This document shows, piece after piece, positions 34,867 to 39,445 of a stretch of DNA of 64,000 nucleotides. Source of the DNA: Buxus sempervirens. Its lineage: Eukaryota; Streptophyta; Magnoliopsida; Buxales; Buxaceae. The first letter of the stretch is position 1, and every line of letters starts with the position of its first letter. The stretch covers positions 32,964,213 through 33,028,212 of the forward strand of contig OX387185.1 of assembly GCA_947561395.2 (NCBI GenBank), given 5' to 3'. Made by a program: the position numbers and the translations under genes. Under the pieces are notes generated by a model. That model worked only from the letters and a program-made list of their open reading frames with translations. It did no database searches and was not told the DNA's origin.

Positions 34867-36662
34867 TAAATAACTTAAAAAATGTAATTTTCCGGCCCGG
34901 TTGAACCTAAACCGGCCTGAACCAGTCCCTTAAACAATTTGGGCTATCTTAAGCCCATATTTGGACCATGGGCCCAGATGGGCCCACCAAGACCACCCTA
35001 GGCCCAACTGTGGAGCCCAATTCGGACCGGCCCAAACCAGGCCCGTTTTCAATAAACGCCCAAAGCCACTTGACTTTGGCTAATGGGCTCATTCCAAGCC
35101 CACTAAGCCCAAACCTAAAGTGTAAATAAATAAAATAATAAAATAACCAAATGGGTTACCCAATAACCCAACTGGGCCCAAGGCCCAACCATGGCAGCCC
35201 ACGGGTCTTCCAACGGGACCCGGGTCCGACCCACCTCACTTAGATAAACAAAAAAGATAAAATTAAAATAAAAGGGACCCACACCTTCAGACGGTCCCCA
35301 CCAGACCAAATAAGTGTGCATGTTGGCTTAGGAATTGGGTGAGAACTAAGTTGACTCAAGACCAAGGAGACCCATGGGACCTGTCAATCGACAGGGCGGG
35401 CTAGGGTGTCTTCGGACTTCCCTAGACGTAACCGAGAACTTACTCAGAACTCTAAAAAGCCGCAGACCAGATTAATTATGCCCGGATAGGTGCCCTTTGT
35501 GTCTGCCTGCACATCTCAGGCAGTGGCGACTCCAAACTCCAAATCAGTCCCGAGGCGAGCATCACTCTTTGCATGCACCTCGTCGTGCGGCCCGAAACCG
35601 GAATCGGGGGGTGCGCACACTTATATAAGGGGGTACTTTAAGTATACTTGGGAGGGTACTTTAAGTATACAAGGGGATACTTTAGATATACTTGGGAGCT
35701 TACTTTAAGTATACGAGGGGGTACTCTATGCATACTTGAGAGGGTACATTAGGTATACAAGGGGGTACTTTAAGTACATTTGGGAGGGTACCTTAGGTAT
35801 AATCAGGGGATACTTTAGGTAACACTTGGGGGTATTTTAGGTAACACATGGGGGGTACTTTAGGTATAATAGGGGGATAATTTAGGTAACACTTGGGGGT
35901 ACTTTAGGTATAGTTGGAGGATACTTTAGGTAATACATGGGGTACTTTAGGTATAATTGGGGGATACTTTAGGTAATACATGGGGGTACTTTAGGTAATA
36001 CCTGGGGGTACTTTAGGTATAGTTGGGGGATACTTTAGGTAATACATGGGTGTACTTTAGGTAATACATGGGTGTAACGCCCCGGATCCGTGTTGTTCAT
36101 TAAAGATATAACACGTCTCACGGAGGTTAGGCAAGGATCGTTAATCAATTTATGATCGCTGGATAGTCATACATCTATAACCTGACAGAGTGCACATTTC
36201 CATTTATGCAAAGTTGTAACATTTAAACTGAACTGAAATCATATGGTTCATCCCCAATTTACTTTAATACATCTCAATTAATTCAAGTTCTCAAATTCGG
36301 AACAGATAACCTACAAGTCTAGGGAAGGTAATAGTAGTCTTCCTCCCTATATGCCTCAGCAGGATCTACCCCAGTAATCGCCTCACCACGAGTATCTGAA
36401 AAAAACAGAACAACAACATAGTGAGATACAAATATCTCAGCGAGTAGCACATGCATGCAGAAATAGTTGATCACATTTTAAAACTATGCATCGACAACAC
36501 TACAATACGTTTAAACAACCAACATCAACTTCCCAAGTTCAAATCAAACAAATCACATCTCAGTTAAGTACAATAACACATCGATTGGTCAATGTCATGA
36601 CTATCGTTTAGTTGATAAATTAAGCATGCCAAGTAGACACTCCACACCTCCATGTACACAGT

Positions 36663-36785
36663 TCCGGCCTACTCAGGGTTTCGGATACTCTGAAATGACG
36701 GCCTACTCAGGGTTTCGTCATCCAATGCAGGCCTACTCCCCGGGTTTCTGCATTGACAACCAGGCCTACTCAGGGTTTCTGGCTG
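36663..36785. repeat. Four hairpins with constant core and variable stems
   Basis: The core GCCTACTCAGGGTTT (third copy GCCTACTCCCCGGGTTT) occurs at 36667-36681, 36701-36715, 36731-36747 and 36764-36778. Flanks are complementary within each copy but differ between copies: TCCG/CGGA, ATGACG/CGTCAT, CAATGCAG/CTGCATTG, CCAG/CTGG (the last extends after one mismatch). Confidence 0.92.
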
Positions 36786-37389
36786 CTCTACACCGGTCGT
36801 GGCAACACACAAGGCCATGCAATTCCAACAACCAACAATAACATCACATTACTAAGCTTAAACATCTGGATCCAGGACAAGCTAGACCAAAACAGTAAAC
36901 ATCGTATAATCTCAATTTCAATACGGCATAAAAAAACCATTCATCCCACATCATGTAAAAACTCATCACAATTCATCACCTGTCCCTCTGGACCAAGCAG
37001 TACCTCAAGTACATTCAGTAATTTCTCATTTCCGTAACACAATTCATATGGAAGTAAAACTCAATGCATTCATACCAAGGAAATCCTTTCAATACATTTA
37101 AAGTTTCCAACAAGCGAAACCAGAAATACAATAACTTCTCAATCAAAACCGTGTATAGAACAAGGAAAAGCAACTGGTAACTCTTACTAGTTTGGTGTCC
37201 GGCACAATACTCATAACTAACCTAAACTCAACTTAAAAACTCTTAAGAGGTTCACTAATTTTTCCTCTAATAATTTCATAGGCAAAATGGTTTTTCAGGT
37301 TCCTAACCAAGTTAATAGTGAAGTGGTTTAACCCTTAAGTAATGCAAATACTCTTGGTCAAATCAGAAATTCCATTTCAGTAAGCAAAA

Positions 37390-37665
37390 TAGGTCTGCCG
37401 CTCACCTACTGAGGTGGGCGCGAGGTGAGCGCCGGTCGGCGGTGAAGAAAAAGGGCAAAATCGACCTGCCGCTCACCCGACGCTAGGTGAGCGGGAGATG
37501 AGCGCGAGATGGGCGTGAGGTGGGCGCGAGATTCGCGCGAGATGGGCGCATCGTTTTCCGCTGAGCGCGAGCTGAGCGGCAGCCGGGCGCGAGATGAGCG
37601 GTGGGTCGTTTTTAATGGGGCGCCTACCTCTGAGGTGAGCGCCGGTGAGCGCGAGGTGAGCGGAT
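37390..37665. repeat. CpG-rich GGTGAGCGCG word cluster
   Basis: About 275 bp of degenerate 10-11-bp words (GGTGAGCGCG, AGATGGGCGC, GAGATGAGCG), far richer in G, C and CpG than the surrounding sequence. Confidence 0.88.
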
Positions 37666-39445
37666 ACCCCCTGTGATTTTCATTTCTCTGTTATTTTGAG
37701 ATCTACATGACTGGCCGGTTTGTGAAGGTCTGTAATTACTCCAATACACTCCTAATACTCCCAGAAGACTTCCCAACCATATTTGGAATTAATCTAAACA
37801 CTTTCATTTTCAATTATAAAATTAAATCCGGAGACTCTGTTCATGTAACTTCCCGAAAACCCGAAAACCAGAAAAACTCATACTATCAGTTGATATATAA
37901 ACCATGCATCAGAATAATCTCGAGAGAAACATAAAACACAAAACCCAGTTGTAAATCAGTGCTACTCACCTGAGTGTGCTTATTCCCGAATGGTAAAACC
38001 TCGGTCGATCACTTCTCCGGCCACGCACGCGAATGAAAAACCTACCGAAACAAATCTTCTCGAGCAGAGACAAATAGCCCACTGAACTTCAGCTCCGAAC
38101 TCCTTCTTCCAGCACTTGCGATTTATGGTTCTTCACGAACAGAAGCCCTAGTCGCCACTCCAGCCGAAATCGCGAGTTCTCCTGATGTCCAGACTTAACG
38201 AAATGTTTCCGTAAGTATACGCGTATTTCGTTTAAAACCAAAAACCCTACTTTCCCTTATTTGCTCATTTAACATTTACCTTGCGAGATGTATACGCCGG
38301 TCGATCAACCCTTTTAACCCCTTGATCCTATACATGCTCGCCCACCGAAGATACTACATGTTCAGCATCTATTCGCGTTAATAATCACATAACTATACTT
38401 TAATAATACCAATGATAATACTACGATTTTTCAGAAAAATGGCTATATAACGCCTGTACATACGAGTATGGGCTAAGCCCTCAAACCACAAAATAACCTG
38501 ATAAAACACAGTTTATACATCAGAATAAATAACTAAATAAATAAATAAATAACTCACAAAATCAGGGTCTTACAATGGGGGTGCCTTAGGTATACTTGGG
38601 AGGGTATACTTTAGATTTACTTGGGGGTGTGCCCTAGGTATTCTTGGCCCAAATTGGTGTTATTGAGGGTTTAAGAAAGGTCCAGAAGTGTTGCAATTCG
38701 GATCTGGGCACAAAACAATAAATCTGAAAATTTTGTATTCGACACGCGAACATTAAGGTTGGACGTTCGAGCGTTGAACTTTTATCAAATGGTTTCTGCA
38801 AAATTTTACTCAACGCTTGATTCAAGGTTTTCATGCGAAGGCTAATTTTCACATTTAACATCAATTTTTCAGAATTTGATTTCCAATTCACTAGAACTAA
38901 TTGAAGGATATCTTAGCCAATTGAAATTTAAACATAACCTTAATTAAGCTTATTTTAATAGAACCTTCAACATACTTCACTTTGTTTTCTCCAATTCTTA
39001 GTCATAACTCACATCCACCTCATTTTCATCTCACAAGTGCTTAATTAGTCTAATAATCTCACTTTAAATAATTAAACTTAATAATTAAGATATAATTAGG
39101 GTTGGTGTTTTACATATGATGAGCTCTCTTATGTGATTTGACCAGGCACTTGGCCCAAGATTTGATTGGCAGTGAATGAGTTATCTTACTGGGTAGTGGA
39201 TGAGTAGTTCCACTTGGCTGTGAATGTGTAATCTTACTTGGCAGTGAATGTGTAATCTCACTTGGCAGTGAATGAGTAAACTCGCTAGGTTTGTGCATTG
39301 AGGCATTGGTTCTAGTAAATGATGCGAATGGTTTGTGTTACATTATGAATCCTACCAAGATATGCTTGTAGTAAATGATTGGGTCTATCGAACTAATTCT
39401 ATGTATTATCCGATTTAGATGCTTTGACTTGAGATTATACCTTAT

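Follow-up and report, generated by a model that had tools for sequence, protein, structure and literature searches.

The LTR and its hairpin array

The window, which is the whole 64,000-nucleotide stretch of Buxus sempervirens DNA analyzed here, contains a complete LTR of 2502 bp at 36073-38574. The target duplication ATGGG lies on either side of it, at 36068-36072 and 38575-38579, and because of this 5-bp duplication and the lack of an adjoining internal region it is identified as a solo LTR. The sequence-only reading had placed a series of hairpins inside a plant LTR, and this is confirmed. The main features are as follows:

36073-38574, minus strand (sense): solo LTR of a Ty3/gypsy chromovirus, assigned from the target duplication together with the primer motif and the domain matches in a relative
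36660-36689, minus strand: hairpin unit 1, AGTTCCG/CGGA(T)ACT around a core at 36667-36681
36695-36721, minus strand: hairpin unit 2, ATGACG/CGTCAT around a core at 36701-36715
36723-36755, minus strand: hairpin unit 3, CAATGCAG/CTGCATTG around a core at 36731-36747
36760-36782, minus strand: hairpin unit 4, CCAG/CTGG around a core at 36764-36778

The strand was assigned from two other loci, L002 and L003, where the tRNA-iMet-type primer motif TGGTATCAGAG, which we take to be the primer binding site, adjoins the LTR end. The sense strand is therefore the minus strand. The element is a Ty3/gypsy chromovirus, presumably of the Tekay clade. In a relative (L140), one ORF matches RT_RNaseH (2.1e-34) and Integrase_H2C2 (3.4e-19), with rve under its cut-off, and a match to Chromo (4.9e-06, 26.8 bits against a cut-off of 25.1) lies in the stretch past an in-frame stop. 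The arrangement of chromoviruses, with RNase H before integrase and a C-terminal chromodomain, is thus found in a relative. On contig C21 the RNase H/integrase ORF sits between two LTRs, and the chromodomain lies beyond an in-frame stop.

In the internal region beside the L002 LTR (L139), the 7 kb behind a primer motif hold only two stop-to-stop ORFs of at least 120 codons, and Pfam gave no match for the sense-strand ORF; L139 is probably a decayed or non-autonomous relative with the same LTR. Tandem repeats were also noted at the locus. At 35622-36076 there is a minisatellite (GGGGGTACTTTAGGTAATACAT type) whose units measure about 22-25 bp, and it resumes beyond the solo LTR at 38579-38647. 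GC-rich repeats of roughly 11 bp (GCGCGAGATGG type) lie at 37400-37670, a part of the LTR that also falls in the putative intron described below.

The four units span 36660-36782. Each has the core GCCTACTCAGGGTTT, which in unit 3 is longer by two bases (the CC/GG form), and the perfect stems beside the cores measure 4, 6, 8, and 4 bp. In these respects the sequence-only reading was accurate: the four units, the shared core with one expansion, and the lengths of the stems, complementary within each unit, are all as it described them. It also held that the flanks are unrelated between units, in agreement with the finding that the 5' arm of one unit pairs with the 3' arm of another over 1-3 bp only. 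The length of 4 bp for unit 1 is correct for a perfect stem, but becomes 7 bp if one bulged base is allowed (36660-36666 paired to 36682-36689), and relatives carry the unbulged form AGTTCCG/CGGAACT. When hairpin positions in this LTR were drawn at random 200,000 times, with the real sites also eligible, a summed stem of at least 22 was reached once. The core with up to three mismatches matches 7 times in the window, compared to 1.37 expected from shuffles.

On the minus strand, units 1, 2, and 4 read as stem, GAAACCCTGAGTAGGCC, stem, where the first G and last C of the central sequence are stem bases. When folded as the sense strand, three units form an outer stem, an internal loop, a CCU/AGG inner stem and a GAGU loop, and the inner part of unit 3 is weaker than in the other units. 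The folding energy of the 146-nt array is ordinary (z of -0.70 for the sense strand and -1.19 for the plus strand). An Rfam covariance search of 36000-38700 gave no match to the array, which is thus not recognized by Rfam as a member of a curated RNA family, including hammerhead retrozymes; the sole match up to an E of 5 was at 37526-37550, under its own gathering score. Two other identities were considered and rejected. A hairpin source of small RNA was rejected by reasoning, because the longest stem is 8 bp, and a telomere box, which we take AAACCCT to represent, was rejected as this motif is absent from lineages with a GTAT core.

Conservation and variation among genomic copies

A search pattern whose anchors lie outside the stems, and which ignores both stems and cores, was found at 1932 genomic places, its gap excluding the exact spacing of the window itself; the reversed control gave 0. 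The hairpins recur in the family. A related array, type 2, was found at 57 places and a third anchored pattern at 147, again with 0 for each reversed control, and the matches listed for the third pattern include more than one form of unit 1. L010, L016, L019, L028, L034, and L036 each have a pair of arrays, whole or partial, separated by about 270-330 bp.

The loci were sampled in several ways. L001-L008 were picked for their identity to the array and L009-L038 for a change in the first stem pair, which biases both sets; L039-L138 are the first 100 of the anchored-pattern matches listed, all from one contig. Of these, the 30 loci L039-L068, chosen by 19 anchor bases and their spacing only, were used to measure conservation, and gave one further feature:

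36633-36890, minus strand: conserved island holding the array, from sliding identity in 30 loci

The LTRs of these 30 loci align poorly over much of their length. The interior of the array has a mean pairwise identity of 0.910 (435 of 435 pairs), against 0.631 in the nearby LTR upstream, 0.577 downstream, and 0.610 further on. The loci were found by anchors at both ends of the array, and the island is thus measured in a sample chosen at that place; the anchors favor conservation nearby, yet barely that of the intervening 120 bases. Within the family, variation is alike in stems (0.061), cores (0.062), and spacers (0.056), which implies that the whole stretch is kept, rather than the stems in particular.

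Changes in the stems were analyzed using 154 distinct arrays out of 160, comprising the window, L039-L138, the 57 type 2 arrays, and two members of the biased set, L014 and L036. Watson-Crick pairing in register is 83.9%, compared to 11-22.5% when the arms are slid. In-register pairing therefore persists, and inheritance alone can explain the difference. At 36729/36749 in unit 3, a two-sided transversion relative to the window is present in 142 of the 154 arrays (111 C-G, 17 C.A, and 14 T.G) and a one-sided one in 4. Unit 3 has further forms at its sixth pair, namely A-T, A.C (G.U on the sense strand), and G-C. At 36762/36780 in unit 4 the numbers are 60 two-sided (39 C-G, 9 C.A, 9 T.G, and 3 T-A) and 6 one-sided. 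The two-sided transversions probably represent few events, passed on to many copies. Among copies, unit 4 has the stems CCAG/CTGG, CCCG/CGGG, CACCG/CGGTG, and CATCG/CGATG, and unit 1 has AGTTCCG/CGGAACT, ATATCCG/CGGATAT, and AATCCG/CGGATT. For unit 2, no alternative paired form was seen within the family beyond single copies. Related families have other matching stems, some of different length.

The tests for double changes gave no excess. On a tree built from the same 154 arrays, there are 5 same-branch changes from one pair to another, against 6.3 expected from non-partner combinations and 10.3 by permutation. Genome-wide, CpG double changes number 112 for partners (79 + 33) and 102 for non-partners (56 + 46), so pairing has no visible influence on how resident copies decay. 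Covariation by a G-test with APC, on the same arrays, was rejected as a measure because its signal is dominated by clade structure and by a shared change from GTTT to GTAT in the core. This change is common to units 1-3 of the same copies (units 1 and 2 are both T at the site in 105 of 154 arrays and both A in 42). It is expected if one factor reads all units, and conversion between units fits it too.

The compensatory evolution proposed in the sequence-only reading is consequently supported only in part. Some stem pairs differ between families with pairing kept, but the two-sided transversions are probably few inherited events and the double-change tests show no excess; moreover, the unlike stems in the four units of one element do not by themselves demonstrate compensation. 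Within the family, inheritance accounts for most of the stem pairing. Nor is the core as constant as was claimed, given the GTTT to GTAT change in units 1-3 and the different inner part of unit 4 in type 2, which is ACTA/TAGT or AACC/GGTT instead of CCT/AGG.

Strand-specific wobble pairs were counted on a tree of 131 of 139 sequences (L012, L019, L022, L032, L034, L045, L050, and L061 were dropped), a set that includes biased rows, some of them chosen for stem changes. No preference was seen on terminal branches (82 for the plus strand and 81 for the sense strand), and internal branches gave 5 and 9. Type 2 arrays likewise show no strand preference (120 plus and 127 sense), and CpG pairs are 56 of sense type and 46 of plus type. 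The wobble counts do not decide between RNA and DNA, nor between the strands.

The putative intron

On the sense strand the array is located between two further conserved islands, about 260 nt before the second of them. These islands resemble 5' and 3' splice sites, and for this reason the array is suggested to lie within a putative intron of the LTR:

36396-37969, minus strand: putative intron around the array, with donor GTGAGT at 37964-37969 and acceptor TTTTTTTCAG ending at 36396
36423-36438, minus strand: small hairpin, GAGATA-loop-TATCTC, shortly before the 3' splice site

The donor-like island reads GTGAGTAGCA or GTGAGTGGCA, and GTGAGT is present in 24 of the 25 loci that have sequence there, out of the 30. 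The acceptor-like island, a polypyrimidine tract followed by CAG, is present in 25 of 29. The loop of the small hairpin is TTTG in the window and TTCG in most aligned relatives. The place of the array as a conserved island in this putative intron is a stronger result than the compensatory changes, and one beyond the reach of the sequence-only reading.

Exon 1 is followed by an intact donor at 646 genomic places, and the same exon 1 runs directly into exon 2 at 0, a comparison that overstates its power because the junction pattern demands 15 exact exon 2 bases, which only part of the family could match. A first junction pattern, also with 0 places, was discarded as uninformative, since the donor pattern made to accompany it fits just 1 of the 68 loci L001-L068. 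If the putative intron is spliced, the spliced RNA would rarely or never be copied back; a count of 0 would equally result if splicing never took place. A similar argument, that spliced RNA is rarely or never copied back, has been made for BARE (PMC3735527).

No consistently open phase was found for an ORF joining exon 1 to exon 2 of the LTR. Behind the putative 3' splice site, at 36319-36393 on the minus strand, there is an open tail of 24 codons and a stop (TRGEAITGVDPAEAYREEDYYYLP in the window). It is open in 30 of 69 sequences, with a nonsynonymous/synonymous ratio of about 0.30 per site over 27 distinct forms, calculated from pairwise single-step codon differences. The tail appears to behave as if coding. 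No upstream exon in consistent phase was found for it, and other lineages have no such tail.

Proposed function and comparison with known systems

What is observed is a set of conserved hairpins located between islands resembling splice sites, and from this we suggest that the array acts as a conserved cis-acting RNA module in the unspliced transcript of this chromovirus family. We give this putative function a probability of about 0.5. The array would be transcribed and folded, and the unspliced genomic transcript would present the apical motif (sense CCCUGAGUAGG) repeatedly to one factor, while the spliced transcript would be without the hairpins. The likeliest use would be the marking or management of unspliced RNA, whether through packaging by Gag, in the manner of retroviral packaging signals, through export of RNA that retains the intron, or through restraint of splicing.

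Alternatively, the core could be a protein-binding site in the LTR DNA, such as an enhancer or silencing target, with the inverted flanks aiding dimer binding or a cruciform. The fourfold presence of the core would be natural in such a site, as would a GTTT to GTAT change common to several units and wobble counts that favor neither RNA strand. We nevertheless consider it improbable, as a binding site leaves unexplained why four unrelated stems each pair with their own partner, and the island sits between splice-site islands of the sense strand.

Two explanations that dispense with selection seem to us less probable again. The arms may be a mutational by-product, made or repaired by quasi-palindrome template switching or by copying between units during reverse transcription. 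Unit 2 of L045, L050, and L061 is GACGAAC/GTTCGTC, as if one arm had been copied onto the other, and L022, L010, and L036 have duplicated units or arrays; template switching of this sort has been described for RNA genes (PMC8794818). Such a process would not account for an island of 91% identity in LTRs that are about 60% identical, and the CpG double changes reveal no repair of arms in resident copies. Recombination may instead have spread one array among diverged LTRs, with no selection holding it. L001-L006 and L008 are identical to the window over 36623-36772 although, in an alignment that excluded L007, their LTR stretches show 8-12% difference overall, which is what such sharing would produce, in loci that were chosen by this very stretch. 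Conservation is otherwise concentrated in the splice-site-like stretches and at the LTR end, a distribution that function fits better than random exchange.

It can be suggested, although we think it rather unlikely, that plant chromoviruses keep an LTR intron and that the array is a repeated signal labeling unspliced RNA for packaging or export. If true, the LTR itself would carry the switch between spliced and unspliced RNA that retroviruses place downstream of the LTR. In a variant of this reading, the sense apical sequence UGAGUAG would make each hairpin a decoy for U1 snRNP and so restrain splicing; UGAGUAG shares seven bases with the 5' splice site of the window LTR, GUGAGUAG, and five in GUGAGUGG lineages.

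The element resembles Tekay/Del chromoviruses in its Ty3/gypsy integrase, the chromodomain match ending pol, and the iMet-type primer motif. No hairpin array is mentioned in the sections consulted of PMC6317226. Little seems to be known of cis-acting RNA signals in plant Ty3/gypsy elements: the term "packaging signal" was searched for in one review and not found (PMC12786077). In open-licence papers, the core occurs as text in 11, none of which concerns LTRs by its title, and among the titles listed by searches of such papers none names an array of constant apex and variable stem in a putative LTR intron of plant chromoviruses.

Hairpin signals in retroelement RNA are of a known kind. The packaging and dimerization signals of retroviruses and retrotransposons (HIV-1 and MMTV psi, and the Ty1 5' region) similarly consist of several hairpins in the 5' genomic RNA, and in retroviruses part of the packaging signal is missing from spliced RNA. 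Here, in contrast, four hairpins share one apical sequence and lie inside the putative intron of the LTR, and they are not known to bind Gag. The closest parallel for the intron is with the facultative introns of plant LTR retrotransposons (Ogre, EVADE, and BARE1), which also have splice sites in an element that needs unspliced RNA. A review that names EVADE states that plant LTR elements are generally without introns (PMC12786077); the BARE1 splice junction is at the end of gag and the Ogre intron is between two ORFs (PMC3735527, PMC6317226). The putative splice sites described here differ from those of BARE1 and Ogre in being within the LTR, and the array between them is a small and testable candidate for a signal that keeps full-length RNA apart from spliced RNA.
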